From a virus: 64,000 bases of DNA. Below the pieces are notes generated by a model. It had not been told where the DNA came from, did no database searches, and saw only the letters and a program-made list of their open reading frames with translations. The DNA lies in the IMG/VR virus record IMGVR_UViG_3300043256_000125, positions 1 to 64,000 of that record; one strand, written 5' to 3'. The position numbers were made by a program, and so were the translations under genes. Shown here piece after piece: positions 40,510-59,588 of the stretch. Positions within the stretch are counted from its first letter, which is position 1, and each line of letters begins with the position of its first letter.

Positions 40510-40899
40510 TTAGGCGGGTGCTTCGGCTTTGGCAATGGCTAACTCACACAGGCGCACCGCGCCGGCCACACCTCCGTCGTAGCCGTCGATTTCCATCAGG
40601 CGACTCAGTATGACCATTGCCGCCCGGATCGCCTCCAGCAGGTCGTCATGCGAGTTGACGCAGCGGACGATGCGCTCGGCGTTGGCGCGACATTCATCGG
40701 CCGTGATGTGCGGCGGATGCCGTTCGATTCCGAACTCGTCCGAATAGAGTTTACCTGTTGTTTTTCCATTCGGCTTCCGCCCGTATACGCCAGTTGTAGC
40801 AATCCGTGTTGACTGCGAGCGGATTGGGATGTAGACCAATCGACTATCACTATCGATCTCAGGACCACATTCCCACGGTACGGGTGTATGTTTGCTCAT
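40510..40899 (-). CDS. Small protein of the R-x-V-N-x-H-x-D-L type
   Basis: 129 aa. ADECRANAERIVRCVNSHDD core as in 26952-27188, here with a longer beta N-terminus (MSKHTPVPWECGPEIDSDSR) and a Gly-rich end. This type is frequent in phages and unnamed. Confidence 0.7.
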   Translation of the reverse strand: MSKHTPVPWECGPEIDSDSRLVYIPIRSQSTRIATTGVYGRKPNGKTTGKLYSDEFGIERHPPHITADECRANAERIVRCVNSHDDLLEAIRAAMVILSRLMEIDGYDGGVAGAVRLCELAIAKAEAPA

Positions 40900-41135
40900 C
40901 GTCTCACCTTGGGGTTAGGCTTCCTCGCAACCAGCCTCGCCGGCTGCGCGTCGACAAAGTCACAACCGTAGACTTTCGCCAATTTGCGCAGCATCTCGGC
41001 GCCGAGCGACTTTCGCCCTGACTCGGCCGCATAGATCGAGTCGGTACGGGTCAGGCCGACAGCTTGGGCCGCCTGGTGGCCGGTGAGGCCCGCGGCGAGG
41101 CGCAGGGCCTTGAGGTTGTTGGGTTGTTGTTTCAT
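40896..41135 (-). CDS. Xre-type HTH regulator, 79 aa
   Basis: LKALRLAAGLTGHQAAQAVG, LTRTDSIYAAESGRKSLGAE, LRKLAKVYG: helix-turn-helix with Xre signature. Ends in a basic tail (ARKPNPKVRR). Overlaps the next gene's start; possibly a regulator of the accessory block. Confidence 0.75.
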   Translation of the reverse strand: MKQQPNNLKALRLAAGLTGHQAAQAVGLTRTDSIYAAESGRKSLGAEMLRKLAKVYGCDFVDAQPARLVARKPNPKVRR

Positions 41136-41666: not shown

Positions 41667-41713
41667 CGTTTCTCTCCGGTTCGGGGTTATGTTGTGTCCT
41701 TGTCATGCCCTTA

Positions 41714-41741
41714 TTATACGCTTATCGGCGGGCCCGTCAAT
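41714..41741 (-). promoter_or_regulatory. Near-consensus leftward promoter
   Basis: TTGACG (41741-41736), 16 bases, TATAAT (41719-41714). Perfect -10. Starts the leftward gene run below 41666. Confidence 0.75.
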
Positions 41742-41886: not shown

Positions 41887-41915
41887 TTGACGCCGGGGGG
41901 CCGGGGTGGTAGGGT
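41887..41915 (+). promoter_or_regulatory. Possible rightward promoter before the 41922 gene
   Basis: TTGACG (41887-41892), 17 bases of G-rich spacer, TAGGGT (41910-41915). Weak -10. Reads toward the 74-aa gene and the PEP-CTERM gene. Confidence 0.3.
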
Positions 41916-41921
41916 AGGGGT

Positions 41922-42146
41922 ATGATCGCATTCGCCAAACCGCTGATGTGTGACTTCTCGGGAGCCGTTTGCACGGTGACCCCACTACCGCTACCGGAGC
42001 CATGCCCAGAGTGCGACCTGGATCCGGCGGCGGATCCAGACGACTTCACGATCACGTTCTCCGGGCTACCCGAAGGCTTCACGTGCGACTTTGCCGAGGC
42101 TGAGCGGCTCAAACGCGAGCTGCTGAAGCGAGAGGGCTTGCTGTAG
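41922..42146 (+). CDS. Hypothetical Pro/Asp-rich protein, 74 aa
   Basis: MIAFAKPLMCDFSGAVCTVT, then PLPLPEPCPECDLDPAADPD: Cys/Pro-rich start, acidic middle, helical basic end (ERLKRELLKREGLL). Unrecognised, directly upstream of the PEP-CTERM gene. Confidence 0.55.
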   Translation: MIAFAKPLMCDFSGAVCTVTPLPLPEPCPECDLDPAADPDDFTITFSGLPEGFTCDFAEAERLKRELLKREGLL

Positions 42147-42201
42147 AGGGACCGACTGAACGCTAGGACGGCCACAACTTTCACTTTGGGAGGGTGATAC
42201 G

Positions 42202-43053
42202 ATGAGACGAGTGATTCTGTGTGCGGTGGTTGTGTGCTTGGTTACGGCTACGGGACGGGCGGATTTCATCCTGTCCGGTAGTGAGCACTTGGAGGTGGAT
42301 TCAAGTCACAGTGTCGGTATCCTGTACGACTCCAGTACGGCGGATGTCGTTGTAGGTGGATATGTCAAAGACGCTTACGTCAACAACGCCAGCGGCCTAA
42401 TGATCTTTGCCGGAGGTGTCGGCACCGTTGAGTCCTACGACACCAGCACCGTGACCGTCTTCGGTGGGGGCATCATCGGCCTGAATGCCTACGACACCAG
42501 CAGCATGATCATCTCCGGCGGGGGCATCCAGTCACTAAAGTCCCAAGACGCCAGCAGCGTGGACATCTCCGGCGGGGTCGTCAATCGCATGAATACTTCC
42601 AACACCAGCAGCATGATCATCTCCGGCGGAACCTTCGACATTCTGTATACCTATGATGTCAGTAACGTGGACATCTCCGGCGGGAACTTCAACGATCTGT
42701 TTGTCTACAACACCAGCAACGTAGATATCTCTGGCGGGGGCATCGAGAACTACCTGAAAGTCTACGGCACGAGCAGCGTCACGTTTCACGGCTACGATTT
42801 CCGTGTGACAGGTGGCCTGCGTTTGGAGGGCGACAGGGTGCTAGGTACGGGTGCCTTGACCGGCAGGTGGTTTGACAAAACACCGTGGATCGTAAACGTT
42901 TCAAGGAACGACGCCAGCGCAACAATACTAGTCGTTCCCGAGCCCTCAACGCTCGTCCTGTTGGCCATGGGTGCCATGGGGCTTGTCGGCTACGCTTGGC
43001 GGCAACGGAAGCGATCGCCAATCACCTCTCCCGATACGGCACCAGTTCGTTGA
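42202..43053 (+). CDS. Secreted PEP-CTERM protein with beta-helix repeats (moron)
   Basis: 283 aa. Signal peptide (RRVILCAVVVCLVTATGRAD), then six or more 20-residue units of the form TSSMIISGGG...VDISGGV, a stacked beta-helix, and at the C-terminus VPEPST (246-251) with a hydrophobic helix and RQRKR, the PEP-CTERM sorting signal. Known: such proteins are exported and anchored by exosortase, mainly in planctomycetes and some proteobacteria with that system. GGGAGG lies eight bases before the ATG. It is against the structural operon, as morons are. Probably changes the surface of infected or lysogenic cells. Confidence 0.88.
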   Translation: MRRVILCAVVVCLVTATGRADFILSGSEHLEVDSSHSVGILYDSSTADVVVGGYVKDAYVNNASGLMIFAGGVGTVESYDTSTVTVFGGGIIGLNAYDTSSMIISGGGIQSLKSQDASSVDISGGVVNRMNTSNTSSMIISGGTFDILYTYDVSNVDISGGNFNDLFVYNTSNVDISGGGIENYLKVYGTSSVTFHGYDFRVTGGLRLEGDRVLGTGALTGRWFDKTPWIVNVSRNDASATILVVPEPSTLVLLAMGAMGLVGYAWRQRKRSPITSPDTAPVR

Positions 43054-43255
43054 GCTTCGCTTGGCGCTCAGTGCATCCGCCGCACGGCTTGACACCAAAG
43101 AACTTGGTCACCTTGGCGATCGTGTCGCCCAACCCGCGGCTGCGTTGAACTCGGCAGTTGCGGCGGTAGTTGCCGGGCAACAGGCGATGCTTGTCCTTGT
43201 CGCACCGTTTGCACCACCAGCCGTCGGGTGTTTGTTGAAGGTTGCAGTCGGTCAT
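43022..43255 (-). CDS. Small zinc-type protein at the tail operon's end
   Basis: 77 aa from an ATG that overlaps the upstream stop (ATGA). GWWCKRCDKDKHRLLPGNYR, then RGLGDTIAKVTKFFGVKPCG and GCTERQAKLNELVPY, a pattern that recurs in phage tail-end proteins. Two CxxC pairs. Converges with the PEP-CTERM gene. Confidence 0.75.
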   Translation of the reverse strand: MTDCNLQQTPDGWWCKRCDKDKHRLLPGNYRRNCRVQRSRGLGDTIAKVTKFFGVKPCGGCTERQAKLNELVPYRER

Positions 43256-44553
43256 AGGGTGAACGCCCGGGGGAAGGGTGCTAATGGAGAATCGCACATG
43301 CCACCCCTGGCACGCAGATTGAACGTAAAGTCAAAGTCGTGGCAATTAAACAGGACGGAAGGATCATAGGAGAACTTGACCCGATGGAAGCTGCCACCGT
43401 GCGTCAACACTGTCCGGACCAGCGTGCCATCGATGTCGGGGTTCCTGCCTATTATCAACTTTGTCTCACTGCCAGCAGGGCAGCTCGACGACTCCGGAAA
43501 CGTATATCGCCACAAACACCCCTGACCCTCTACCGGCTGCAAGATAAACGTGCCGTTGAGTTCATCGCAGCACCCTCCCCCCTGAATGCCTTCGATGTTT
43601 ACCTGTACGTCAGGCCGATCGTCGTCTTGCTGGCAGAGGCACCAATGACATGACCACGGTCTATCTGCGCATTCGGTAGTATAATCAGGCGTCAACAAGA
43701 CCTTTGCACCCGCGGTGTAGTCACAGGCTAGCCCAGGGCCGCCAGATATCTTCGGAATCTCCTCCTGACTCCAATTCAGGACATCAGGGATACTGCCATA
43801 ATCTTTCCGATACACCACTGCGCCGCTACCTTGCGCAACCTCAACGCGCCAAAGACTATCAGATACCGTCGTGAAGACGATGGAGATTGCCCTGTCGCAC
43901 AGTTGTCCGTAGAACGCACTGTGGGAGCGCCGCCAAGTACACCTACTCACATACGGTATCCACTGTGGCGTGGTAGGATAGCAATCACAAAACTCGCAAT
44001 CACCCGAAGCCAACGGCGACCGAGTTGATATGCCCTCCCATTCGATCTTGAAACAAGGGGGCGTCGGAGGCAGTACCTTGTCGCACAGGACGTTACACGG
44101 ACACGGCCCATTGCCCGTGTGGCGGGTGATCGTGCAGGTTGCCGACGAGCTATCGCAGTCCGAGCCGCTCGCATAGTGGTCCAGCGAGTCGCCGACAATC
44201 GAGCAGCAATCGGGCTTTGTCGTCCCGTAGTCCTTGATCCAGATATGATCGCCCAACTCAACGCGAATCTCGTAGCGGCCTGCGCTGACTGGCTGTACCG
44301 TCAGCGTAATGTCATCAGACTCAGAGCAATCCGCACCAATGACGTTCAGGCACCTCCAGCGACACGCGAGGTTAGGGTCCTGGCGGAGATAGTACGCCCG
44401 ATTCAGTGTACTGCAACTCGCGCAGCTCTCGGGATCGGTAGCCACCAGACCCGCGATGACTACCGTCCAGCAACACGGAGCTGTGCTCTCACAGTGACTG
44501 CATTCGCATTTGCATCGCTCCGGATCGCAACATTCTGGGCACGGATACGGCAT
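43252..44553 (-). CDS. Cys-rich distal tail protein with three repeated domains
   Basis: 433 aa, start by TGATG at 44553. Contains about 38 Cys. Three repeats of the type CxxC...LN...C-W-R (for example CASCSTLNRAYYLRQDP, CEFCDCYPTT, CHWCLCQQDD...CCDELNGTFILQPV...CLWRYTFPE). Between them short beta segments. The number of Cys suggests zinc or disulfide-stabilised domains in the virion. Function unknown; last large gene of the tail set. Confidence 0.7.
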   Translation of the reverse strand: MPYPCPECCDPERCKCECSHCESTAPCCWTVVIAGLVATDPESCASCSTLNRAYYLRQDPNLACRWRCLNVIGADCSESDDITLTVQPVSAGRYEIRVELGDHIWIKDYGTTKPDCCSIVGDSLDHYASGSDCDSSSATCTITRHTGNGPCPCNVLCDKVLPPTPPCFKIEWEGISTRSPLASGDCEFCDCYPTTPQWIPYVSRCTWRRSHSAFYGQLCDRAISIVFTTVSDSLWRVEVAQGSGAVVYRKDYGSIPDVLNWSQEEIPKISGGPGLACDYTAGAKVLLTPDYTTECADRPWSCHWCLCQQDDDRPDVQVNIEGIQGGGCCDELNGTFILQPVEGQGCLWRYTFPESSSCPAGSETKLIIGRNPDIDGTLVRTVLTHGGSFHRVKFSYDPSVLFNCHDFDFTFNLRARGGMCDSPLAPFPRAFTL

Positions 44554-45167
44554 CAGGCACTCGCTGCACAGTCTACTTGCACCCCATCCCACCGGAACAT
44601 CGGGTCGTTCCACGATGCCTGGAGTACGGCGTTGTCATCGAGATCGCCCCAATCGTGCAATTTGAAGACCACCTCTTGTGCCTCCATCCGCAGCGCCCTT
44701 TTAATCGGCTTTGTTACCACCATATTCTTTACGGTGATATCACCGCCCGTGTAGTCGCCGTCAACATTGCACGTGATCCACAAAGCGTGAGGTTCGAGGT
44801 ACTGAATTTCAAACCGTCTGTTCCGCAAGACGGCAAACCCTTGCGACCCGTTGCTGTCGGGCGACTCTAGGTCGTCACGCCCCCGGCCGCGGAAACGATA
44901 GATGTAATCGTAGACGGGGAACGTCTCGGCGTCGTAGTCAGTAACGTAGAGCGACTGGGCACTGTCCCATGGTCGCGGATACGCCATAACGCTCGTATCC
45001 TCGGAGTCCAGCGGATAGGCCAGCTCGAACATCACTTCCCGGCGTCCGCCACCACCTGGCGTGCGGAACCACCGCGCGCGGCGCACCGGGGGATTTTGCG
45101 TCCGTCGCTCTACCCAGCGGGTGGCTTCGGCGGCGCGTTGGGCGGCGTCTGGGGAGAATTGCGTCAT
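44553..45167 (-). CDS. Tail-associated protein, 204 aa
   Basis: Starts MTQFSPDAAQRAAEATRWVE; later DSAQSLYVTDYDAETFPVYD and a beta-rich end. Resembles unnamed minor tail or tail-tip proteins that follow the tape measure in siphophages. Coupled to the next gene by TGATG. Confidence 0.7.
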   Translation of the reverse strand: MTQFSPDAAQRAAEATRWVERRTQNPPVRRARWFRTPGGGGRREVMFELAYPLDSEDTSVMAYPRPWDSAQSLYVTDYDAETFPVYDYIYRFRGRGRDDLESPDSNGSQGFAVLRNRRFEIQYLEPHALWITCNVDGDYTGGDITVKNMVVTKPIKRALRMEAQEVVFKLHDWGDLDDNAVLQASWNDPMFRWDGVQVDCAASA

Positions 45168-45179
45168 TGCGGGGCCTCG

Positions 45180-46451
45180 CTATTTCGCAACCCGCGTCCA
45201 GTCTTGGTGGGCTGGTCCGTGATAGACGTCACTGAGTTGAACCTGCTCACATTCCATCGTGCCGCCCACGGCAAATACGCCAGCCGGATCTTGAATATCG
45301 CCGCCGAAAAGTCGGATGCTGGTGCAACCCTTGGCGCGCATGTCCCCTCTGAAATCGATCTCACCCCCATCGCTGAGGATCAGGAAGCCGACAGTCCCTG
45401 CGTGATTCCAATGGTAAGTCCCGCCGTAGACTGTGACTGCGTTGGGCGTGGCCGTACCTGCCACCGTAACGTTAGCGGCGCATTCCTTCACCAGGATGAG
45501 ATTTTCCAGATCGCTGAGGCAACTAAACACACCGCCGCCGATGGTTATCACGCCAGCGCTCTTGTGAGTGATTCCGGAACCGATGGTTACCGTGGCGTCC
45601 GTAGCCTGAGTAGTAATGAAGCCCATGCCTGCATCGTCGAAGTTGGCCGTCTCGCCGCCGAATATCGCGATCCCCAAATCGCCTTTGTTTACGTACCACT
45701 TATTGTCGACATGCGTCCCTTTCCAGAGAATCGACGGGACACCCGCCTCTACTCGGGTGCCTGAATTCCAGATGATCAATGTCGTTTGGTTGGACCCCGT
45801 ATCGAGATTGAACCGGCCGGAGCCGCTGCCACCGCCCAAACCCAGATCCGCTGCCGTAACACTGATCGCAAGGTAGGTCGGCCGGTACTCGACGTAGGGA
45901 TTACTGGTGTCGTTGGAATTTGTCCTCGGAAGCCCCAAGGTTCCGGTAAACGTCTCATGCCTGGTCAGCGATGCCAGGGCCACGCCGCTCTGCGCCAATC
46001 CGTAGAGGATGCTTATCGCCGAATTCTCCAAGATCACGTCATCGCCGTTGACCGGCACGACTCCCGTAGACCAATTGGCGGCCGTGTCCCATGCGTCAGG
46101 ACCGCTGTTGGGCGTGGTGTCTACCTGGACACCGATTGCCCCACTGCCTGCCGTATCCTCGGATGCCGTCACGATGAACGGGATGCCCTCCGTCTCCGAT
46201 GTCAATGTAATATCCGGGCTGTTATCGCCCGCATCCTGCTCGGCTATTTCGGGGGCCGCCGAAGCATTCCACGCAGCGACCAGCCCCGCCACCACCGCCG
46301 CTATCGTCTCTGTGGCGGCCACGGTAAACGTCACCGATGCCGAGCCACAGGTCAGCGTGCCCGTATCGCCAGTGGCCCACGTACCGGTAACCGTGAGCGT
46401 CGATACCTCTTTCACGGCCGGCGCGTTTCCTTCCCATGCTACAATTGCCAT
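45180..46451 (-). CDS. Tail protein with beta-helix character
   Basis: 423 aa. N-terminal domain with GTWATGDTGTLTCGSASVTF, then a helix with repeats like FNLDTGSNQTTLIIWNSGTR and GDLGIAIFGGETANFDDAG. Probably a virion fibre or tip protein. No enzyme motif. Confidence 0.7.
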   Translation of the reverse strand: MAIVAWEGNAPAVKEVSTLTVTGTWATGDTGTLTCGSASVTFTVAATETIAAVVAGLVAAWNASAAPEIAEQDAGDNSPDITLTSETEGIPFIVTASEDTAGSGAIGVQVDTTPNSGPDAWDTAANWSTGVVPVNGDDVILENSAISILYGLAQSGVALASLTRHETFTGTLGLPRTNSNDTSNPYVEYRPTYLAISVTAADLGLGGGSGSGRFNLDTGSNQTTLIIWNSGTRVEAGVPSILWKGTHVDNKWYVNKGDLGIAIFGGETANFDDAGMGFITTQATDATVTIGSGITHKSAGVITIGGGVFSCLSDLENLILVKECAANVTVAGTATPNAVTVYGGTYHWNHAGTVGFLILSDGGEIDFRGDMRAKGCTSIRLFGGDIQDPAGVFAVGGTMECEQVQLSDVYHGPAHQDWTRVAK

Positions 46452-46455
46452 ATCC

Positions 46456-46821
46456 TCAATCCTCGTAGAGTCGTGCGTCTAATTTACAGCTCGCCGTGTC
46501 GGCTTTGGCTTTCAGGACCACGCCGGGGAAGACGCGGAACCACGCGGGTTTACCAGGCATGATCTTGCCGCACCGAACCATGCCGGTACTATCCGGCCCC
46601 CACTCGATGAAGTTCGTATTGTCCAGGTTCACCATGAACAGGATCCCTTCGGTGGTCACGTCGCCGAAGACAATGGTTTCCTCGCTGGTGCCGATTACCT
46701 GCACGTAACCACCACGGCCAGGGTTGTTTTGGGTGATATCGATCTGCCCGCCCTGCCAGTTGTCCTTGAAGTTGCCGTTCTCCACCCGGAACGACAGTCG
46801 TAACTTGATTTCGTTTGCCAT
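46456..46821 (-). CDS. Small virion protein, 121 aa
   Basis: Beta-rich (IKLRLSFRVENGNFKDNWQG, then FRVFPGVVLKAKAD). GGAG nine bases before the ATG. Minor tail component by position. Confidence 0.7.
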   Translation of the reverse strand: MANEIKLRLSFRVENGNFKDNWQGGQIDITQNNPGRGGYVQVIGTSEETIVFGDVTTEGILFMVNLDNTNFIEWGPDSTGMVRCGKIMPGKPAWFRVFPGVVLKAKADTASCKLDARLYED

Positions 46822-46824
46822 GGG

Positions 46825-47736
46825 TTACTCCGGTGGTATGACTGCCGAACAGCCCGGCAAGATGGTGAAGTCTTTTTCTTTGAAGAGTGGTACACGGATC
46901 AAATCCGCGTTATCTGGTGTCGGTTTGATGATCTGGAACCCATTGATGTCTAGCGGAACGGGGATCACGACCGGGTTTCCCTCGCCGTCGACGCATGGGA
47001 TAGCGGCCCCGTCCGGATTGAACGCATCTTGTTGGTAGAAGTCTCGATTGAGGATATCCGGGTCCCACGTCTCGTCATCGTCTTCGCCGGCTTCCTTTTC
47101 GTCCTTCAGATGTAGCACGAGGCCAAACGGGCGGTAGAGAGTATCGTTGCGTTCCTGCCACTCCCCAATCCTAATAGATTGCACTTTCGCCTTGCGTTTC
47201 GATACCGTCTCGCCGTCGACCTCAAACGCGGCTTTGTTGATCGCGTTCTTATATTTGCGTACCCATGATGGAATCCCAGGGGCGTTGTATCTGATGTTCA
47301 CGGCCCATCGCGGATCATCGTCCTCGATCGGTGGATCGAAATAGTTGGCGGCCCCCGTCAGGATCGCTGCGCCATGTCGGTTCTTGTAATATGCCCGTTG
47401 GTATTGATCCGTATTCCACGTAATCACCACGGGGTCATCCAGTGGGTTTTCCTCGGCCTCGAATTCGGTTGAATAGCCGGCCGTGACGAGCCACACTCTC
47501 TTGGAAAACGATTCGTTGCGCGCCCGAACACGCCGACACGAGGCGAGGATATTTTCGTCATAAGGCTGCCCGATACGCGGGCAGTCCGGGTGGGCCTTGA
47601 CCGTGACTGCCTCGTCGGTGTTCAGGGTGGTGACAGCAATGAAGGTTCGCGTGTATCGCGAGATCGTCTTTCCGCCGGATACTTCGGTAGCCCCGTCGCG
47701 CCCGCGGTGGATCTCTTTGAATGTGTCTACGGACAT
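46825..47736 (-). CDS. Tail-associated protein, 303 aa
   Basis: MSVDTFKEIHRGRDGATEVS opening; AVTVKAHPDCPRIGQPYDEN, then beta strands. Overlaps the tape measure by TGATG, the usual place of distal tail proteins. No family named. Confidence 0.7.
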   Translation of the reverse strand: MSVDTFKEIHRGRDGATEVSGGKTISRYTRTFIAVTTLNTDEAVTVKAHPDCPRIGQPYDENILASCRRVRARNESFSKRVWLVTAGYSTEFEAEENPLDDPVVITWNTDQYQRAYYKNRHGAAILTGAANYFDPPIEDDDPRWAVNIRYNAPGIPSWVRKYKNAINKAAFEVDGETVSKRKAKVQSIRIGEWQERNDTLYRPFGLVLHLKDEKEAGEDDDETWDPDILNRDFYQQDAFNPDGAAIPCVDGEGNPVVIPVPLDINGFQIIKPTPDNADLIRVPLFKEKDFTILPGCSAVIPPE

Positions 47737-49886
47737 CAGCCGGGGATCTCCTGGAAGGGTTCAGGTGTCTGATCCCGCATTTCCTCTAACGTAAGGAACA
47801 TCGCGGCCGTGTTCTTCGCCGTGTCTCCGGTGTTCTTCTCGACTGTCTTCTGACCGCCCCTGGATGCTGCCATAATGGCGCTGAACGCCGCGCTTGACCC
47901 TTTCTCAAGAGCAGCCGCGCCACCGCCTTCTTCGGATGGTTGCGCCTCTCGTAGTTCATCAATTTGCTCCTGCAACGCACGCTTGCGAATCGCAGCATCA
48001 ATACTCCCGCCTTGAAACAACCTACCAATTCGGGCCGCCTCTTGGCTGGCCCGCTCGACTGGCGTTCTCAACCGTTCAGAGAGTGCTTCACCGATCTTAT
48101 CAAGCTTCGCCTGTTTTTTCAGCCTGGCGATCTGCTCTTGTAGTTTGCCGATCTGGGCCACTTCCTCCGGTGTCGCCGCCCCGGTTTCCTGAAGCCTTCG
48201 CAAGGCTTGCTGCGCTTCGGTGATCCCGGTCGTCAATCGTGCAAACTCGTCTCGGAGGGCCCGGATTTGCCCGAGCGGATCACCTCGCTCTCTCGCGGAA
48301 ATCTGCCTGGTTAAGCGGGTCATTTCGGCCGCCTGTTTGCCCGAGATCTCACCAGTCACAAAGAGGCGAATGATCTCCTGTCTCGTTGTGCTCGCTCCAC
48401 GCTTGAGCAAAAACAGCTTTCGCCTGAGATCGTCAATCTTTTTCTCGGGATCAGTGGCCATCGCGAGCGGGCCAGCCCCCGCTTTCTGTTCGGCCTCTTC
48501 CTCTTTCGCGGCGGCTCTTGCCCGAAGGCGGGCCGCCTTGTCCAGCCGCCTTTGCGCCCTTGCTATCTTTTCCTCTTGGGCAGCTAAATCGGGAGCGCCG
48601 GGTAATACTCTCGCGATCGCACCGGCAACGGTGCCGGTAGGATCAAGCGCAATATCCTGTACGGCATCGGCCACTTCTCCGAAGGCGGATGCCAGGGAAG
48701 TGAGTCCAGCGATAGCGTCACCGATGCCCGACATGATCACTTTCAACCCGGGGCCGAACCCTTTTGATAGCGCAGCGCTCGCGTCGTCGATTGCAGCCTT
48801 CAGTATTTTCCACCCATCCTGGAATGGCGTGAGGATGTTGCCGGACACCTTGTCGACTGTACCGGCGGCGTTGTTAAGTATCTCAATGAATTCTCCAAGC
48901 CGTCCCGACGTGCCTAGAAACGCATTAGCCAACGCCACAGTCTTCTTTGTGAATCCAAGCGTCATAAGCTCTAGTGTTCTCTGTTCAGCATTCATCCCCC
49001 TGAACCGATCCTCAAGTTGGACGAGGATGTTAACCATCTTTGTCATTTCGCCAGTGCTCTTATCGAACACCTCAATACCAGCCTTCTCAAATGCACCCTT
49101 AAATTTAACGGCTTGAATCTGAAGTAGGTTGAACATCCTGGCAATAGCTGTGCCCGCCTCCTCACCCACGATCATCTTTTCCGCGAGGACGGCTAGAAGC
49201 GCAACAGTCTCTTCGATGCTGGCACCAGCAACGCGGGCGGCATTAGCAGCGTCGTTACCCAAGGCTACGGCAAACTGTTCTGTTGATGCCTGTGCCAGTT
49301 TATTTGCTTTCACCAAAACGTCGGTTACCCGCGTTAGGTTTTTCAAGTTTTGCGCAGCATCGTCACTCTTTAGCCCCATTGCCGCCTGGGCCCCTGTCGC
49401 CAACTCTGTGGCCCGCGCTAGATCAAAATTGCCTGCCTGTGCAAATTTCGCCACCTGCGGCAACGCGCCAAGTGCTTGTTTAGCTTTGAGCCCAGCAGAA
49501 AACAGAAAGAAGTATGCTTCCGCAGCCTCGGTGGCCGAGAATCGCGTGGCCCTGGCCACCTCAAACGCCGTATCCCGCAGGTTTTCTCGCATGGACTCGC
49601 CGACATCGTCCATGATCGCCAAAGATTGACGCATCTTGCGATTGAATTCCTCGCCGCCGGCAGCGAGCCTCACAAACCCGAATCCGGCCGCAAGCGGAAG
49701 TAGGGAAGCGACTAGCAAACGAGCGCCGGCCGCCGCCGTGGCAAAGCCGCCGGCCATTTGTGCCCCCATCCGTGATGTAGCCGGGCCCATCGCGAGAACT
49801 TGCCCCCGGGCCACGCGCATGCGCTTATCAAACTGCGTCGTCTGCGCACCCAGCAGGATCACAAGATCACCGATTGCCGTTGCCAC
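47736..49886 (-). CDS. Tape measure protein (TP901 type)
   Basis: 716 aa. N-terminal hydrophobic region (LLVASLLPLAAGFGFVRLA), then the family core around EAAEAYFFLFSAGLKAKQAL, ATGAQAAMGLKSDDAAQNLK and ASIEETVALLAVLAEKMIVG. The end is coiled-coil and basic. Known rule of thumb (about 0.15 nm per residue) gives a tail of roughly 100 nm. Follows the frameshifted chaperone pair. Confidence 0.88.
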   Translation of the reverse strand: MATAIGDLVILLGAQTTQFDKRMRVARGQVLAMGPATSRMGAQMAGGFATAAAGARLLVASLLPLAAGFGFVRLAAGGEEFNRKMRQSLAIMDDVGESMRENLRDTAFEVARATRFSATEAAEAYFFLFSAGLKAKQALGALPQVAKFAQAGNFDLARATELATGAQAAMGLKSDDAAQNLKNLTRVTDVLVKANKLAQASTEQFAVALGNDAANAARVAGASIEETVALLAVLAEKMIVGEEAGTAIARMFNLLQIQAVKFKGAFEKAGIEVFDKSTGEMTKMVNILVQLEDRFRGMNAEQRTLELMTLGFTKKTVALANAFLGTSGRLGEFIEILNNAAGTVDKVSGNILTPFQDGWKILKAAIDDASAALSKGFGPGLKVIMSGIGDAIAGLTSLASAFGEVADAVQDIALDPTGTVAGAIARVLPGAPDLAAQEEKIARAQRRLDKAARLRARAAAKEEEAEQKAGAGPLAMATDPEKKIDDLRRKLFLLKRGASTTRQEIIRLFVTGEISGKQAAEMTRLTRQISARERGDPLGQIRALRDEFARLTTGITEAQQALRRLQETGAATPEEVAQIGKLQEQIARLKKQAKLDKIGEALSERLRTPVERASQEAARIGRLFQGGSIDAAIRKRALQEQIDELREAQPSEEGGGAAALEKGSSAAFSAIMAASRGGQKTVEKNTGDTAKNTAAMFLTLEEMRDQTPEPFQEIPG

Positions 49887-49887
49887 G

Positions 49888-50214
49888 TTACGCGCTCCGC
49901 CTTGCTTGGCTGTATGCCTGGCCGACCACCTTGGCGCTGTCTGCCGGGGATAACACCTCGGATTTCTTTTCCATCAACACATCGAACACATCGGGGTCTA
50001 CCGCTTCGCTGCTATGGGCACTACACAACAACGCGAATCCATGCTTTACAATCGAGATCAGCCGATCCCATGGGTCGGGCTCGATCGAACGATAGGCAAT
50101 CCACTCGTCGAACTGCTCGGGTGAAAGCTCATCGAGCATCGCATCGACATCCAGCGTCCCGACTACTCGCTCGGCGAATCGGAAGGCAAGGAATCGACGG
50201 TGGTCTCGCTTGAG
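49888..50214 (-). CDS. Frameshifted extension of the tail assembly chaperone (gpGT-like)
   Basis: Read after a -1 shift at the heptamer 50220-50214. Gives 108 residues (LKRDHRRFLAFRFAERVVGT to SQARRSA) on top of the first 130 of the upstream gene, 238 aa in all. In frame 0 the upstream gene stops at 50163. Known: the long form is needed to assemble the tail tape measure. Confidence 0.75.
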   Translation of the reverse strand, partial: LKRDHRRFLAFRFAERVVGTLDVDAMLDELSPEQFDEWIAYRSIEPDPWDRLISIVKHGFALLCSAHSSEAVDPDVFDVLMEKKSEVLSPADSAKVVGQAYSQARRSA

Positions 50215-50603
50215 TTTTTTACCAGGCTCTCGATGTCGTCGCGGCTCAACCCGCAGTGATTCGCGCACTCTTCATACAAAAACCCGGTGTCCGCGCCGTC
50301 GTAGTTGTCAAAGACGTAGGTGTCTTTCGGGCCGAACAGCCGGTTGCCCGCCCGATCAACCAGGCATCGAACGAGTAACCGCCGGCTGGCGTCCTCCATC
50401 CGAGATTTCTTTACCCCGGTCCCTCGTGAACTCCACACCTCACTTTGATACTGCTGCGTTTCGAGCTCGGTTAGCGACTGAATGCGAACCCTCACGCCGC
50501 ACACCGGCATCGGGTCCAGCGTCTTGTATCGCCGCGTGGGTTTCAGACCGATCTCGCGTAGCTGGTCCGCACTGGCAATTCCGTTTTTCTCGCTCATGGT
50601 CAT
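50163..50603 (-). CDS. Tail assembly chaperone, short form (gpG-like)
   Basis: 146 aa, coupled to the upstream stop by ATGA. Beta N-terminus (RVRIQSLTELETQQYQSEVW) and an acidic end. Sits before the tape measure and contains the slip site near its end, as expected for gpG. GAGGA lies about five bases before the ATG. Confidence 0.8.
   Translation of the reverse strand: MTMSEKNGIASADQLREIGLKPTRRYKTLDPMPVCGVRVRIQSLTELETQQYQSEVWSSRGTGVKKSRMEDASRRLLVRCLVDRAGNRLFGPKDTYVFDNYDGADTGFLYEECANHCGLSRDDIESLVKNSSETTVDSLPSDSPSE
50214..50220 (-). promoter_or_regulatory. Programmed -1 frameshift site A-AAA-AAC
   Basis: Heptamer AAAAAAC in the coding strand with codons AAA-AAC in frame 0. This is one of the classical slippery sites. 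A clean -1 move joins the two frames of the chaperone pair. Confidence 0.8.
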
Positions 50604-53522: not shown

Positions 53523-53885
53523 CTAAATCCGCTGGTTGCATTCCAATTCCAACTCGATGTGCCGCAGTCCCACGTCGGTCACGCGCGTTATATCCAACCG
53601 CGTGCCGTTGTGCAGCGTGAGCCACATCTTCGGCGTGATCGTCCGCGTCTGACTGTCACTGTGCATCCTCACCAGGTGCGTCACGTCGGCCTGTGTCTGC
53701 TGCGCCTGAAATCGTTCTCCGCCGCGTTCCGGCCCGGCGACCGGTCGTACGTTGACCCAGCGGGAAATGAACTCGACGCCGTTCTCCACCGGTTGCCGGT
53801 CCGCGTTGTACGTCGGCTCGTTCTGCCATATCGTCGCCCGCTTGTCGTACGAACCCACTTTCGGCATTTGCATCTTGTCTCGCAT
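53523..53885 (-). CDS. Head closure (stopper) protein
   Basis: 120 aa. KVGSYDKRATIWQNEPTYNA and GLRHIELELECNQR: the SPP1 gp16 / phage head-tail joining type. Confidence 0.75.
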   Translation of the reverse strand: MRDKMQMPKVGSYDKRATIWQNEPTYNADRQPVENGVEFISRWVNVRPVAGPERGGERFQAQQTQADVTHLVRMHSDSQTRTITPKMWLTLHNGTRLDITRVTDVGLRHIELELECNQRI

Positions 53886-54448
53886 CAGCGACGTAGCTCC
53901 CGATAGCTGTAGGGCCCCATGGAGGTGTCGATGGCCTGCTGTTCATACTTGTCAGGCTCGCGGTTCCAATACAAAAACGATGCGTAAAGTTTGATGGCCT
54001 GCTTGATCGGTTCCGGCACTGCGCTGGTCGCTCCGTACCCCGCCGTGAATTGCACCACAACAACATCGGCGTGCCCCCGCACACCCACCGGCCACGTCTG
54101 CTGGTATTGCAGTCGCACGCCGCCCACGCCGTCGATGTCGTCTTTCTCGTAGACCGACGAGGCCAGCGTTTGTAGCGTGCCTCCCGTGTCCGTGTACTTC
54201 ACCGTCGAGATGTCGATCAGTGGCGGCCGGGCTAGACGCAAAGGCGAACTGAATCGGTCGAAGTATTCGTCCCAGGTGGCCGTGACGAATTGCGTCCAGT
54301 GGATTTCCTCCAAGTGTTTTCGTGCCGTGGTGATCAGGCCGCTCAGGTACGAATCCTCGATCGGGTCGTCGATCCGCAGATGAGTTTTCAGTTCATCCGG
54401 GGTGATCGGTTCGGTCGTCGAGGGTGTAATCAGTACGGTCTTGGCCAT
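53885..54448 (-). CDS. Head-tail connector (HK97 gp6-like)
   Basis: 187 aa. ITPDELKTHLRIDDPIEDSY, then LITTARKHLEEIHWTQFVTA and a C-terminal helix, the standard adaptor fold. Overlaps its neighbour by one base. Confidence 0.82.
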   Translation of the reverse strand: MAKTVLITPSTTEPITPDELKTHLRIDDPIEDSYLSGLITTARKHLEEIHWTQFVTATWDEYFDRFSSPLRLARPPLIDISTVKYTDTGGTLQTLASSVYEKDDIDGVGGVRLQYQQTWPVGVRGHADVVVVQFTAGYGATSAVPEPIKQAIKLYASFLYWNREPDKYEQQAIDTSMGPYSYRELRR

Positions 54449-54454
54449 GGAACA

Positions 54455-55117
54455 TCAATAGTCGCCCAGGTTGATCCAAGTTATCGTGACGGTCCCGGTC
54501 ACTGTGATCGTTACCGCACCCTCAGCGACGGCCGCCGTAATCGCGGCATTGAGGTACAGGTCGAGGTCGTTTCCGCTCGCGTTGGCAAAGAGTATCGGCG
54601 CGGCCAGTGTAGCGTGAAAATCCTTTGCGGAGCCGCCGGCAACGGCCGTCGACGGGACGATATCCGCCTCGGTGCTCGTCAGTGCGTTGTCATCCGCCCC
54701 CACCACCGACCCCAGCGCCATCGGGAACGTGGCCCCACCACCCTCTGCGTTGACGGAGGTCACCAGGGCGTTGCACGTCGCCCCGAGGATCTGGATACTG
54801 CCGGCCGGGAAGTCGTAGATTTTGACCCCGGTGCCATGATCGGCATCGGCCATGTCCAGGTCCCCCGTCGACGTGAAGGTCAACGTGGTCTTGTGAATCA
54901 CGCCGTCCCCGCCCTCCACGGCAGTACACTTATTAGCTACAATGGCCCCAACGCCCGTAGTCGTGGTGATCGCCCCGCCGATCGCCAGGGACGTTGTCGT
55001 CAACGCGGTGATCGTGGCCGCCGCGATGGTCGGGAACGTACCGATGAAGACCACTCCTGCGCCGAAGTCGATCTCTCGCGATACTTTCAGACGGTCAATG
55101 TTTGCGTCGTATCCCAT
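54455..55117 (-). CDS. Virion protein, beta-rich
   Basis: 220 aa, start by TGATG. DFGAGVVFIGTFPTIAAATI and then a Thr/Gly-rich beta chain (TITVTGTVTITWINLGDY). Probably a head decoration or fibre-type protein at the neck. Confidence 0.65.
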   Translation of the reverse strand: MGYDANIDRLKVSREIDFGAGVVFIGTFPTIAAATITALTTTSLAIGGAITTTTGVGAIVANKCTAVEGGDGVIHKTTLTFTSTGDLDMADADHGTGVKIYDFPAGSIQILGATCNALVTSVNAEGGGATFPMALGSVVGADDNALTSTEADIVPSTAVAGGSAKDFHATLAAPILFANASGNDLDLYLNAAITAAVAEGAVTITVTGTVTITWINLGDY

Positions 55118-55302
55118 CAGGCCAACATCTCCCTTTGTGTGCGAGGCCGCCCTCGCCGCTTCGGAGTGACTGCGATCACCGGCTCGGGCACCATCCGCTC
55201 GGCCCGGCCGCAGTGAATCCACAGCTCGGCCACGCCGTCGGTTTGTTCCAGTACCGTACCGGCCTTAAGCGCATTGAACGGTTTGAGCATTCTGATCTTC
55301 AT
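55117..55302 (-). CDS. Small protein of a recurrent phage type, 61 aa
   Basis: MKIRMLKPFNALKAGTVLEQ opening, then TDGVAELWIHCGRAERM; frequent in phage head operons. Start at 55302 has only a weak ribosome site but overlaps the previous gene. Confidence 0.65.
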   Translation of the reverse strand: MKIRMLKPFNALKAGTVLEQTDGVAELWIHCGRAERMVPEPVIAVTPKRRGRPRTQREMLA

Positions 55303-55894
55303 GGGTCGCTTGATAGTCTTGGGGGTTGTGGTAAATCCGCAGGTTGTTGCCGCCGATCGGATAACGGGGCCGCCCGCAGAACTCGAATTGCACGCCAGGG
55401 CAGGCATCGATGATGGCCTGCGTCACCGGGCGGATGATCAACGTCACCTTGCCCGCCTGGTGGTTCTCGTAGCCTTCCAGGCCAAGCATCACTACCCGCT
55501 TGGCCCCGTTGTTGACGGCGAAGGCCAGCGAGTAGAGACCCGAGAGCGCAAGCTGCTGGGTGTACTGGCCGCGAATAAACAGCGGCGGCCCAGGTACGAC
55601 CAAATCAAGAAACACATCAAAGCCCGTCAGGTTGCGATCTTCCAACGATCTGGTCTTGCGCCACAGCGTTACCAACCGGGTTCCCGTTGCCTGCTTTTCG
55701 TACGCCTCGGCCGTGTGGTTTTGGCAGGCCGCCTGGTCGAACACGAAGTAGTAATCCAGCCGCCGCTCCGCAAACAACTTGACGGCCCTGTTGGTCGCAA
55801 GGGTCGTAACACCCTCCGGCACGATCGGCAAAAACCGTTCTGCGCTGGGCGAGGTGCCAACTACCGCCCACGTTGTCCTGTCGGGTGTATCCAT
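55265..55894 (-). CDS. MptE/DUF115-like protein, copy 2
   Basis: 209 aa, ATG at 55894 with GGAGG seven bases upstream. AVVGTSPSAERFLPIVPEGV, then AFAVNNGAKRVVMLGLEGY and FCGRPRYPIGGNNLRIY: same fold as 51855-52496. Two copies in one structural operon is unusual. Confidence 0.6.
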   Translation of the reverse strand: MDTPDRTTWAVVGTSPSAERFLPIVPEGVTTLATNRAVKLFAERRLDYYFVFDQAACQNHTAEAYEKQATGTRLVTLWRKTRSLEDRNLTGFDVFLDLVVPGPPLFIRGQYTQQLALSGLYSLAFAVNNGAKRVVMLGLEGYENHQAGKVTLIIRPVTQAIIDACPGVQFEFCGRPRYPIGGNNLRIYHNPQDYQATHEDQNAQTVQCA

Positions 55895-55964
55895 AATGTC
55901 ACCTCCAGCCTGGAGGCAGGGACCGCGCCCCGGGGATGCCAAGACGCGACCCTGCTACCCCCAA

Positions 55965-56420
55965 CTACACGCGAAGGATCTGGTTGAAGCCCCGCTCGGC
56001 CGTGGTGTTGGGAGCCTGTCTGCCCCGCGATAAGATCGCGATGACCGCAGCGAAGGTGCCGGCGGTGCCGTCGCCTGCCGTGGCCGTGAGGTCGAGATAT
56101 CGCTTCCGGTATCTCAGGTCGATGTCGAACCCGAACAGGTCGTTGTCGTCGGTGGCCGTGGGCAGGACGCTGGTACTGCCGGCAATGTTGTTCGACGTGC
56201 CGAAGATCAGGCCCGTCACGTTGCCATGATTCGCTCCCGTGTCGTCGGACTCGGTTACCGCCAGTGCCGTCATCGCGATGTCGGTAGCCCCGAGGATCAC
56301 GATGATCCGGCAATAGTCCCAGCCCAACGTATCCAGCTCGGCCACCGTGTACGACGCATCGTCCACGATCGCAGCCGGCGGAGTCAGGTTCACAATCTTG
56401 TCATTTTGAGCATCAATCAT
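55965..56420 (-). CDS. Putative head decoration protein
   Basis: 151 aa. Compact beta protein (LDTLGWDYCRIIVILGATDI, then LRYRKRYLDLTATAGDGTAG). Directly follows the major capsid gene, where decoration proteins are coded in HK97-type phages. Assignment by position and size. Confidence 0.6.
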   Translation of the reverse strand: MIDAQNDKIVNLTPPAAIVDDASYTVAELDTLGWDYCRIIVILGATDIAMTALAVTESDDTGANHGNVTGLIFGTSNNIAGSTSVLPTATDDNDLFGFDIDLRYRKRYLDLTATAGDGTAGTFAAVIAILSRGRQAPNTTAERGFNQILRV

Positions 56421-56456
56421 CGTGCTCTATCCTTTCGTTTGAGTTGATTGGTTTGG

Positions 56457-57839
56457 TTAGCTGCCCGGCGTAGCCAGCATGATCATCGAGCCGGCGTTGC
56501 TGGTATCGCCCACGTCGTGGACATTGATGTCGTGCCGCGACGTGCCGCGGATCGCCAACTGGTCCAGCTCGAAATATCGCTGATCCGAGGTGGCGATCGT
56601 GATCCCTCGGCGATCGCCCAACATGGCTGCCTGGCGAAGATTTCCGAGGTAGGCCAGCCCGTTGGTACTGGTCTGCGCGGTCAAGGTGGAGTTCATCTTC
56701 TGTGAGATGATCACCGGGTACCCCAGGAATTCCTTGGGTGCCGCGCCGGCGATCATGGCCCCGGTGTTGCCTCCGGCCGCGTCGATCAGACGCAACATCG
56801 ACGCCGCCCATCCGGCCTTGGATATGTAAAACTTCGCGTTGTTCTCGGCATACTGCGGCAGCTTGCCGATCATCGACTCGAAGTCCACCAGATCCAGCGA
56901 GCTGAATGCCGTGTTGCCGGTCAGCGCCGTTACGACCGTTGCCGTGGCCGCCGTACACTCTGTGATCAGGCCGCTGATGCCACCGTAGGTCGAGCTGCCA
57001 TCGCCCAGGAAGCCTTCGTCGTCTTCCTTGCTGGCAAACGCAAAGGCCATTTCGGCGGCCAAATCGTCCGCCATGCTGATAATTGAGTCTTCATCGAGTT
57101 CCGAAGAGTACCTGGTGAGGATGCCGATCTTGCGGGCCGTTAGGCGGACCTGATCCCAACCCTTTTCCGATTCGGTGATCTCGGTATTTTCGTCGACGTA
57201 GTACGCCGTCAGACCGGAGACTCGCCGCGGAACCGTCTTGGTGTCGCTGGCCATCGGCACCACGTTGGCCTCGCGACGAAAGACGCCGAATTCCTCCCGC
57301 AGGTCAATGATCGCCGTCGAGAACTCAGGGAACACAGTGAAGCCACCGGCCGTGTTGGCGTCTTCCTGTTGGGCCATCAGCTCAATCCCGTTTGTCCGGC
57401 AGAACTCACGGGCCTTTTGGGTGGCCATTGCTTCGGGCTTGCCGAAGATCGACAGGCAGAACATGCCTGACTTGTAGGCGTTCAATTGGGCGTCCGGACC
57501 CTTGAACGATCGGAGTCGGCCGGCGTACCGGGGAACCGCAAACTTAGGCTCGTCGACCAAGGCGACTGCCACCCCCGGCTGCCCGGGCGGCGATGTCCGG
57601 CCGGGGCCCTCGGTGGCCAGCATCTTGCGCCGGGCATCTTGCCGCTTACGCAACTCCAAGTCGGCCTTGTGCTGGTCGATCTTCGTCTTGAGGCCGGCAA
57701 GCTCCGTTTCCAGGGCGTCGATGCCGTCGCGGTCCTCGTCGGTCAACGGTCGCTTCTCATCGTCGGACGCCTTGAGAATCGCGTCGATCTCTTGTGAGGC
57801 GGCATTGAGCCGCTCGCACCATTTTTCAAACTCGGTCAT
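56457..57839 (-). CDS. Major capsid protein (HK97 fold)
   Basis: 460 aa. The ATG at 57839 follows GAGGA by 9 bases. Residues 1-100 are a coiled coil, the delta domain used as scaffold; then the HK97 body with GGFTVFPEFSTAIIDLREEF, VDENTEITESEKGWDQVRL and EDDEGFLGDGSSTYGGISGL. Likely cleaved by the prohead protease. Confidence 0.92.
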   Translation of the reverse strand: MTEFEKWCERLNAASQEIDAILKASDDEKRPLTDEDRDGIDALETELAGLKTKIDQHKADLELRKRQDARRKMLATEGPGRTSPPGQPGVAVALVDEPKFAVPRYAGRLRSFKGPDAQLNAYKSGMFCLSIFGKPEAMATQKAREFCRTNGIELMAQQEDANTAGGFTVFPEFSTAIIDLREEFGVFRREANVVPMASDTKTVPRRVSGLTAYYVDENTEITESEKGWDQVRLTARKIGILTRYSSELDEDSIISMADDLAAEMAFAFASKEDDEGFLGDGSSTYGGISGLITECTAATATVVTALTGNTAFSSLDLVDFESMIGKLPQYAENNAKFYISKAGWAASMLRLIDAAGGNTGAMIAGAAPKEFLGYPVIISQKMNSTLTAQTSTNGLAYLGNLRQAAMLGDRRGITIATSDQRYFELDQLAIRGTSRHDINVHDVGDTSNAGSMIMLATPGS

Positions 57840-58175
57840 GGTATCCTCGCTTGTTGGGCCGACGGTCAACAAGCAAGGCAAAAGAAAAACGCCGTGGCGT
57901 GTGCTGGCCATCGGCAACTAAGAAATAGTCACCGGATGACCGGCACGCGCGACGGCGCGTTTCGTATCATCGTTCCACCGGGGTCCTGCACGCAACGGCG
58001 TGGGGTGTCGCCCGGCGGCGATTGTCGTCAATTGTCTGTGCAGTGGATTGAGAACGTGGGTTGCTTAGGTCCTCAGTTATTCCCCGGCAGGGAGGACTCC
58101 ACGGCAGCCGGGCCAGATGTTCCCGATGTCAGCAACCCCAGGGAACCCACGGTCTCAATCCACTGCACTCTGACC
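57840..58175. other. Non-coding gap of 336 bases upstream of the capsid gene
   Basis: Holds a 25-base inverted repeat (58038-58062 and 58144-58168) and, at the capsid side, a short GC stem followed by TTTTT. No gene with a ribosome site and sensible length found. Confidence 0.6.
58038..58168. promoter_or_regulatory. 25-base inverted repeat with an 81-base loop
   Basis: GTGCAGTGGATTGAGA... at 58038-58062 pairs with ...TCTCAATCCACTGCAC at 58144-58168 with one mismatch. The transcript would form a long stem, a suitable RNase III site or attenuator between the LexA-domain gene and the capsid gene. Inner GGGTTGCT/AGCAACCC segments can pair as an alternative fold. Confidence 0.65.
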
Positions 58176-58427
58176 CTATTCTATCGGTTTCTCGGGTTGG
58201 GTTCTATTTGTGCATCTGTTCAATACCTCGATGTTCCGCGATTTGCCTTTGACCCTACGAATCCAGCCCTTTCGCTCCAGTGCGCCGAGGTGCGCAGCGA
58301 CAGAATTCGGGGAGCGAAAGCCGAAGTAGGCTTGAATCTCGCGGATTGTGGGCGGGTGGGGGCGGACTTCGATGAAATCAGCAAGATAGCACAAGACGGC
58401 GCATTGACGATCAGTGAGTCCGATCAT
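58176..58427 (-). CDS. Free LexA-type DNA-binding domain
   Basis: 83 aa from an ATG that overlaps the upstream stop (ATGA). IGLTDRQCAVLCYLADFIEV, TIREIQAYFGFRSPNSVAAH, GALERKGWIRRVKGKSRN: winged-helix LexA N-domain. The C-terminal autoprotease half is absent, so it may act without SOS cleavage, as an inhibitor or competitor. Confidence 0.82.
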   Translation of the reverse strand: MIGLTDRQCAVLCYLADFIEVRPHPPTIREIQAYFGFRSPNSVAAHLGALERKGWIRRVKGKSRNIEVLNRCTNRTQPEKPIE

Positions 58428-58627
58428 GTCACCTGCTTCTCCCGGATCGTGCCGTACGAATCCTTCAGTACCAGAGAATACGGCTTGCCGTCGGCGCCCA
58501 TCAACGTAAAAACCTCGCCGGCATCCATGGCGGCCATGGTCGCCTCTGACAACGATTGCTCCCACCGAAGCGTCCGGCCGCGGTCGACATACTTTTTCGG
58601 TCGCCACTCACCCGCGATTGCTGTCAT
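58424..58627 (-). CDS. Hypothetical protein, 67 aa
   Basis: Begins MTAIAGEWRPKKYVDRGRTL, repeating the first six residues of its upstream neighbour. Beta end (EVFTLMGADGKPYSLVLKD). Coupled by ATGA on both sides. Unrecognised. Confidence 0.7.
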   Translation of the reverse strand: MTAIAGEWRPKKYVDRGRTLRWEQSLSEATMAAMDAGEVFTLMGADGKPYSLVLKDSYGTIREKQVT

Positions 58628-59169
58628 GGCGTCCTCAGAATCGTAAACGGCCCGCGAACCCCCGCAGAAAACGACTCCGCCGATTCCATCGCCATCGTCA
58701 CCCGCTCCCGGGCCGTCAGTCCCGTGAGCTTCTCGGTTGTGTCGAGCGACCCCAGCACAAGATCGTGGCCACACCCGCAGGCCGCGTAGGCCATCGCCAA
58801 TTCCCCCACTTGCAGGTCGGCCTCAACGCAGTACAGCGAGCCCCGCCACCCAACCAGAAACGTACCGATCTTTTCCTGCCCACTTTCCGTCACTAAATAC
58901 CCGTGCGTTTTCAGAATCGTCCGAACTTCCGGTAAAAATTCGCGAACCATGTACTCAAAACGGTCTTGCTTTTCCTTGGGTGTCGGCGGCTTCAAGTAGA
59001 ATCGTAGGATCTGCCCCATACGAAACGACGACGTAAACCCCAACAGGAATTCGCCGATCCGAAACACCTTGGGGTCCTTACGGATGCCAAGGGAATACCC
59101 TGCGACTCCTGCCGAATCGCCGCCGATCCAAACTACGTCATCCTGTACGAGGCCCGCAATTGCTGTCAT
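58624..59169 (-). CDS. Proteasome/HslV-like Ntn hydrolase
   Basis: 181 aa. After Met removal the N-terminus is Thr1 (TAIAGLVQDDVVWIGGDSAG). Asp17 (GGDSAG) and Lys33 (RKDPKVF) fall at exactly the positions of the proteasome beta-subunit and HslV catalytic triad. The rest (FRIGEFLLGFTSSFRMGQIL, CGCGHDLVLGSLDTTE) fits a T1 peptidase fold. Lies between capsid and prohead protease, so may degrade scaffold or host protein. Confidence 0.85.
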   Translation of the reverse strand: MTAIAGLVQDDVVWIGGDSAGVAGYSLGIRKDPKVFRIGEFLLGFTSSFRMGQILRFYLKPPTPKEKQDRFEYMVREFLPEVRTILKTHGYLVTESGQEKIGTFLVGWRGSLYCVEADLQVGELAMAYAACGCGHDLVLGSLDTTEKLTGLTARERVTMAMESAESFSAGVRGPFTILRTP

Positions 59170-59393
59170 TACTCAGGAGCCGCCTTTTCTTCTGGGATCA
59201 CCCGAACTGTGACTTCTACGGTATCCCCGACTTTACCAAGGATTCCCGGTAATTTACTGGATCCCGGATGGTGGATCTCGGGGACGGAGCCAACTAACGG
59301 AACGCTACTCAAGTGGGAACCTAGGTCGGCCGTCCCTACTCCCAAGCAATCTTCGTATACCGTTTCCGGCGACCATAAGAACCCGTCGTGTCT
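59169..59393 (-). pseudogene. Degenerate second copy of the 51-aa gene
   Basis: Open frame of 74 residues with no good start, ending KLPGILGKVGDTVEVTVRVI, which matches LPGILGELGDTVRVTVEVIP of the 51-aa gene at 59416. Its expected N-terminus (MIGKIV...) is in another frame at 59336-59419, so a frame change or insertion has split it. Confidence 0.5.
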
Positions 59394-59419
59394 TCAGTTT
59401 TTACAATCTTCCCGATCAT
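59336..59419 (-). CDS. Short peptide, N-terminal remnant of the duplicate
   Basis: 27 aa MIGKIVKTEDTTGSYGRRKR... Its start overlaps the end of the 51-aa gene by ATGA and matches the latter's start MIGEIV. Probably the broken-off first part of the duplicate. Confidence 0.35.
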   Translation of the reverse strand: MIGKIVKTEDTTGSYGRRKRYTKIAWE

Positions 59420-59571
59420 TGCTCGTCCTTTTCTTTAGGAATCACTTCCACAGTTACTCGCACGGTATCCCCGAGTTCGCCGAGAATACCCGGTAATCTG
59501 ATGTCCGTAAAATCATCCTTTGGTACAGGAGGATTATACGCCTGGCAAGTCGCTACAATTTCGCCGATCAT
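59416..59571 (-). CDS. Small protein, 51 aa
   Basis: MIGEIVATCQAYNPPVPKDD, then RLPGILGELGDTVRVTVEVI. Followed by GGGAG-type site (CGGGAGTAAGC before the ATG). Unrecognised; too short for ordinary calls, and duplicated downstream. Confidence 0.6.
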   Translation of the reverse strand: MIGEIVATCQAYNPPVPKDDFTDIRLPGILGELGDTVRVTVEVIPKEKDEQ

Positions 59572-59588
59572 TGCTTACTCCCGATCTG

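Follow-up and report, generated by a model that had tools for sequence, protein, structure and literature searches.

Background

The closest described counterpart of the locus analysed here is the PEP-CTERM/EpsH (exosortase) system of Gram-negative environmental bacteria, whose proteins, as described by Haft et al. 2006 (PMC1569441), combine a secretion-signal-like start and a Ser/Thr/Asn-rich body of low homology with a C-terminal Pro-Glu-Pro (PEP) motif, a helix and a basic tail. These authors argue that this C-terminal sorting logic is analogous to that of the LPXTG/sortase proteins of Gram-positive bacteria; the two systems differ in motif, enzyme and envelope. Genes for exosortase-sorted proteins are generally regarded as belonging to the host and as serving matrix, flocs and biofilm. 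A search of the open-licence literature, taking in the available parts of PMC12642866 and PMC11003980, found no paper with phage-borne exosortase substrates as its subject; the available part of the latter, a Yellowstone virus survey, mentions 13 virus-borne proteins of family TIGR03118 in which an exosortase interaction domain is presumed, and virus-borne proteins of a related kind have thus already been noticed in passing.

The gene considered here lies in a window of 64,000 bases, i.e., the first part of a phage record of 66,626 bases. Its product has the start, the body composition and the tripartite tail in common with the PEP-CTERM/EpsH system; however, the gene is phage-encoded and stands alone, a family search found no exosortase in the phage's record, and the residual tail is longer (13 residues). 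The gene is real, as is its sorting signal, and both are carried by a genuine tailed phage.

Sequence features of the PEP-CTERM gene

The gene and its parts are as follows:

42188..42193, + strand: GGGAGG ribosome-binding site of the PEP-CTERM gene, 8 nt upstream of its ATG (by reading)
42202..43053, + strand: PEP-CTERM protein gene (P0001), 283 aa, with the ATG at 42202 and the stop ending at 43053
42202..42261, + strand: signal-peptide-like N-terminus, about residues 1-20 (charge/hydrophobicity rule)
42381..42801, + strand: eight 54-nt (18-aa) repeats, predicted β-solenoid (repeat search; strands in the model)
42934..43011, + strand: PEP-CTERM sorting signal, comprising VPEPS, a hydrophobic helix and RQRKR (PF07589 match)

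The open reading frame is coding, with phage-like codon use: under a codon model trained on 19 minus-strand phage genes, from which the PEP-CTERM gene itself was left out, it scores 39.3 bits and is the only + strand frame of the window above 20. The product starts with MRRVILCAVVVCLVTATGRA, then DF, which resembles a Sec signal and qualifies as a signal peptide under a simple charge/hydrophobicity rule, used here in place of a dedicated predictor. Its C-terminus consists of VPEPSTLVLLAMGAMGLVGYAWRQRKR and 12 further residues. The Pro-Glu-Pro motif lies near this end, and both curated models of the sorting tail match above their cut-offs, namely PF07589 with 30.9 bits against 20.7 over residues 245-270 (35.4 bits for 42934..43011 in another search) and TIGR02595 with 22.9 bits against 16; PF01262 (E 0.007) stayed below its own cut-off and was disregarded. 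As in other PEP-CTERM proteins, a transmembrane helix (residues 248-269) is followed by a basic cluster, RQRKR. The 13 residues that remain after the end of the PF07589 match at residue 270 depart from the short tail of fewer than 10 residues after the motif that 87% of PEP-CTERM proteins have (PMC1569441), which is a usual trait and not a definition. These results bear out the initial annotation in its reading of the gene as one for a PEP-CTERM surface-type protein with a ribosome site of its own, and the eight repeat copies agree with its description of the protein as repeat-rich.

A tripartite test for PEP, a hydrophobic segment and a basic tail near the C-terminus was positive for the PEP-CTERM gene as the single case among 191 frames of at least 100 aa in the window, and for 1 of 7849 frames from 60 order-1 Markov windows, the latter lacking a signal-peptide-like start. 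On the strength of these two counts, the PEP-CTERM tail is not a product of chance. Further, the part of the protein before the sorting tail contains 27.7% Ser+Thr+Asn and 4.5% Lys+Arg, in the same direction as the raised Ser, Thr and Asn and the few basic residues that Haft et al. report for PEP-CTERM proteins (PMC1569441). Some of the phage's own tail proteins reach similar values, up to 25.4% Ser+Thr+Asn, and composition by itself therefore lends little weight to the PEP-CTERM reading.

Predicted fold

The repeats are spaced by 54 nt six times and then by 57. A single-sequence AlphaFold2 model of the protein, with a mean pLDDT of 67.7 overall and block means of 84-97 for residues about 81-190, places successive strands in the repeats and a single helix, 248-269, in the sorting tail. 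In Foldseek searches, none of the PDB or viral models reached E 0.001. VIA-align aligned the model with right-handed β-helices at Z 10-14, including the L. reuteri SRRP adhesin (Z 13.7, rmsd 3.1, 196 residues), WceF (Z 13.8, rmsd 3.0, 197 residues) and a tapirin domain (Z 12.0, rmsd 3.9, 219 residues); these values are read as a common solenoid and nothing beyond it, since repeats easily score high. The body of the protein is accordingly predicted to be a β-solenoid rod.

Such a rod could also belong to the virion, as a β-helical fibre or spike of the tail, in which case the resemblance of its C-terminal helix to a sorting signal would be superficial. The β-helix is common in tailspikes, the top VIA-align row is indeed a tailspike (Z 14.1, but with an rmsd of 9.2) and the gene adjoins the tail operon. 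Against it stand the signal-peptide-like start, the full tripartite tail above curated cut-offs and the location on the strand opposite to every other strongly coding gene, and we regard this explanation as highly improbable.

Setting in the phage genome

Profile searches of the record identified a portal, a major capsid protein, an HslV-like protease, a head-tail adaptor, a major tail protein, a tail chaperone, a tape measure, a helicase, a methyltransferase, Rep, Sak4 and an exonuclease, and a terminase-like large frame was recognized, by reading only, beyond the window in the same record. The surroundings of the PEP-CTERM gene are as follows:

40896..41135, - strand: small gene for a helix-turn-helix regulator, to the left of the divergent gap (profile match)
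41713..41740, - strand: sigma-70-like promoter for the leftward genes, TTGACG-16-TATAAT, 11/12 (number of such sites within chance)
41922..42146, + strand: small co-directional frame, 74 aa, codon score 13.0, no family match
43022..43297, - strand: 91-aa frame (phrog_32048), the last small one of the leftward tail operon, sharing 32 bp with the PEP-CTERM gene in a tail-to-tail arrangement
43252..50603, - strand: tail module with cysteine-rich and other distal genes, tape measure (47736-49886) and chaperone (50163-50603) (profile searches)
53885..62806, - strand: head module with head-tail adaptor, major capsid protein (56457-57917), HslV-like protease (58624-59169) and portal (60830-62806) (profile matches)

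All strongly coding genes except the PEP-CTERM gene run leftward. As the sole strongly coding + strand frame of the window, it stands outside the operon plan of its neighbours and converges on the leftward tail genes, which upholds the earlier placement of the gene against the tail operon in opposite orientation. Phage morons or lysogenic-conversion genes, e.g., exported superinfection-exclusion proteins, are likewise lone genes in an orientation of their own beside a structural operon, with products predicted to be exported. Unlike them, the window protein is predicted to use the exosortase sorting route.

On account of the small + strand frame just upstream (41922-42146), which may be the first gene of the PEP-CTERM unit, a two-gene unit is possible. 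The minus-strand frame 41801-42184 that overlaps it was judged antisense, its codon score falling below the listing threshold. Left of the + strand unit is a gap of 255 bases, beyond which lie leftward genes including the helix-turn-helix regulator. The promoter scan found one promoter-like site, against a mean of 0.7 (sd 0.9) in shuffles, and none on the + strand for the PEP-CTERM gene; the number of terminator-like sites was likewise within chance.

The record is of the metagenome type and the sorting tail belongs to a cellular family, as would be expected if host DNA had been joined to it or the locus were an assembly artefact. This explanation is scarcely credible given that phage genes lie on both sides, the gene ends overlap, no host genes are found around it and the codon use is phage-like; additionally, the complete genome of an isolated phage, described below, has a gene of the same kind inside its replication block. 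No terminal repeat of at least 12 bases was found in the 66,626-base record, which may therefore be incomplete, and tyrosine integrase (PF00589) and serine resolvase (PF00239) models found no match in it; lysogeny is accordingly no more than a possibility.

Three observations concern the structural modules themselves. The frame 43252-44613 (- strand) encodes a 453-aa cysteine-rich distal tail-operon protein without a family match. The HslV-family peptidase gene at 58624-59169 (- strand), near the capsid gene, might encode a head-maturation protease. In the head-tail region, the members of the pairs 50988-51401/51424-51840 and 51855-52496/55265-55942 match the same relatives at the same positions, and both pairs hence look like duplicated genes.

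Relatives of the protein and of the phage

Scans with the whole window protein recovered no relative from viral contigs, 50,697 phage records or 72,556 plasmids, and the 18-aa tandem-repeat pattern occurred in none of the viral contigs. Only two weak matches (E about 1e-3) turned up in a set of 299 Pseudomonadota genomes, neither extending beyond the sorting-tail region. Two PDB sequence matches, to toxin A-subunit chains (E 0.08, residues 127-187), were dismissed as chance similarity in Ser-rich repeats.

The phage itself has distant relatives, at 51 loci by the tape measure and 7 by the portal. PF07589 matched in 0 of 39 records searched, taken from the longer ones among the 58 related loci, a count that does not imply absence of the gene at that place, since these records are mostly fragments, none seen to cover the PEP-CTERM locus, and the genes flanking it matched at no related locus. 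A scan with the neighbouring tail gene 45180-46448 also found no relative covering the locus. A portal profile search of cellular genomes returned only three, of Rhodobacteraceae type, at 28-31% identity. A planctomycete host, as in the initial annotation, would fit the style of the sorting tail; a planctomycete-style tail pattern occurred in no other virus among the viral contigs.

A proposed role at the surface of the infected cell

We consider it probable that the PEP-CTERM gene is phage cargo for an exosortase-dependent surface protein made during infection. The first element of this proposal can be read from the sequence, i.e., a secretion-signal-like start, a predicted β-solenoid body and a tripartite tail, encoded by a separate + strand unit in a tailed phage. 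The second is modelled on the pathway proposed by Haft et al. 2006: the protein would cross the inner membrane via Sec, the host exosortase would cut it at PEP, and its body would then be delivered to, or across, the outer membrane and so reach the polysaccharide coat. This sequence of Sec export, cleavage by the host enzyme and delivery to the coat appears quite probable.

The third element is weaker, with receptor masking or a change of the coat as the function that we would guess first. The Ser/Gly-rich rod might mask receptors on the infected cell or thicken its coat, such that competing phages, as well as the phage's own progeny, would adsorb less to cells already infected; alternatively, the coat and the clustering of cells might be shifted in the phage's favour. 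The receptor-masking or superinfection form of this step is put forward tentatively, and we would sooner doubt it than rely on it.

The secreted rod might also act on release or spread and not on adsorption, by loosening or binding the polysaccharide coat at lysis. The PEP-CTERM family is tied to exopolysaccharide-making bacteria (PMC1569441), and polysaccharide-active β-helices are among the fold neighbours of the model. However, the window protein has no match to a catalytic family, and a shared solenoid fold shows no function; such a role seems quite unlikely. If phages do carry cargo for an exosortase-dependent surface protein, as we propose, this would provide a route by which the surface of Gram-negative environmental bacteria is rewritten.

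PEP-CTERM genes in other virus records

Viral contigs were scanned with a strict DNA pattern (VPEP(S/T)T-x2-LL etc.), which found 18 stretches in 17 contigs, counts that, owing to the strictness of the pattern, say nothing on the frequency of PEP-CTERM genes in viruses. PF07589 matched above its cut-off in all 17 of these records (18/18 with the window record). Two pairs of records are near-identical (L064/L077, 100% over 9,568 bases; L068/L070, 99.6%), leaving 15. A start resembling a signal peptide can be read in many of the PEP-CTERM frames. Among the 17 records, several are clearly phages: a large terminase subunit was matched by phrog_2 in seven at record level, and hmmscan adds L062, L073 and G052.

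The terminase gene directly adjoins the PEP-CTERM gene in four records (L067, L062, L061 and L073), and in L067 the two stand tail to tail, as does the window gene with its neighbour. In L068 the PEP-CTERM gene is near those for an ssDNA-binding protein, a ribonucleotide reductase and a primase fragment. In others, e.g., L060, L063, L065 and L071, it may lie either inside the phage or in flanking host DNA. Judged by these sequences, the window gene is no lone oddity, and predicted PEP-CTERM genes recur in unrelated phages.

This recurrence bears on the possibility that the gene is a passenger, namely a host-type PEP-CTERM gene acquired by recombination, which would be sorted if expressed and would bring the phage no gain. 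PEP-CTERM genes evolve fast, and their hosts often have many of them (PMC1569441); the body of the window protein has no relative in any other virus searched, and the absence of the motif from the 39 related records, read with the coverage given above, points in the same direction. Against this, the reading frame is intact with a phage-like codon score, it is tightly packed with an overlap of 32 bp, and the recurrence of such genes in phages, with four beside a terminase gene, suggests retention. We hold a passenger to be an unlikely explanation.

An isolated phage with a comparable gene

A search with the window tail peptide matched one named phage, Tunturiibacter phage Tunturi_5 (PP885688, E 0.4), a jumbo phage of Tunturiibacter psychrotolerans with a complete, circular genome of 308,711 bases. 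Of two other motif peptides searched against phages, one found no record and the other found a single record, again Tunturi_5. PEP-CTERM peptide matches in six Caulobacter phage records (E 4) were set aside as antisense to annotated genes, as seen in the one record opened.

The Tunturi_5 protein, gp179 (L090:3458-4096), is annotated as hypothetical. It has a signal-like start and matches PF07589 with 24.3 bits (cut-off 20.7) and TIGR02595 with 19.2 (cut-off 16), and its gene lies between those for an exonuclease and an SbcD-like protein, each one frame away. The terms "PEP-CTERM" and "exosortase" are absent from the available main text of the Tunturi_5 paper (PMC11924767). Like the window protein, gp179 is phage-borne, with a signal-peptide-like start and a PF07589 tail; it differs in having another body, a location in a replication block and the same strand as its neighbours. 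The cultured pair of Tunturi_5 and Tunturiibacter psychrotolerans makes the idea of phage-borne surface cargo testable now.

A short exosortase coupled to its putative substrate gene

Among the 18 records searched, including that of the window, an exosortase was found in one, G052 (61,727 bases). At L072:4735-5909 of this record, a PEP-CTERM gene and a 171-aa exosortase-family frame overlap by the ATGA at the stop codon of the former. The 171-aa frame matches PF09721 with 124.5 bits (cut-off 25.7) over model positions 106-253 and TIGR04178 with 68.2 (cut-off 23), and scores 90.8 with TIGR02602, below the cut-off of 105.55. It keeps three motifs, Cys-x-Gly (CAG), Asn-x-x-Arg (NVVR) and His-x-x-x-Gly (HQGAG), which Haft et al. 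place around the proposed catalytic residues of exosortase (PMC1569441). An integrase gene (phrog_1, 8.8e-33) adjoins this frame; a terminase and a major head protein of the same record match phrog_2 (1.3e-16) and phrog_1357 (2.9e-58), respectively. With the short exosortase as the query, viral contigs yielded no sequence other than the query itself, and phages yielded none. Exosortase sorting is difficult to study, and a short form encoded by a phage would provide a minimal version of its enzyme.

The theme that emerges, of unrelated phages, one isolate and one coupled short exosortase, is more interesting than the window gene alone. There is close to an even chance that phages of exosortase-bearing bacteria repeatedly use the sorting pathway for surface remodelling, some, such as the window phage and Tunturi_5, borrowing the host enzyme, and at least one temperate phage bringing its own short exosortase coupled to a substrate gene.

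Two minor observations come from the other virus records. L077 (record G056) and L069 (record G049) contain two PEP-CTERM genes each, within 2 kb, and the virus-borne PEP-CTERM protein at L075:3804-4571 has a C39-like cysteine peptidase as its body (PF13529, 46.3 bits).
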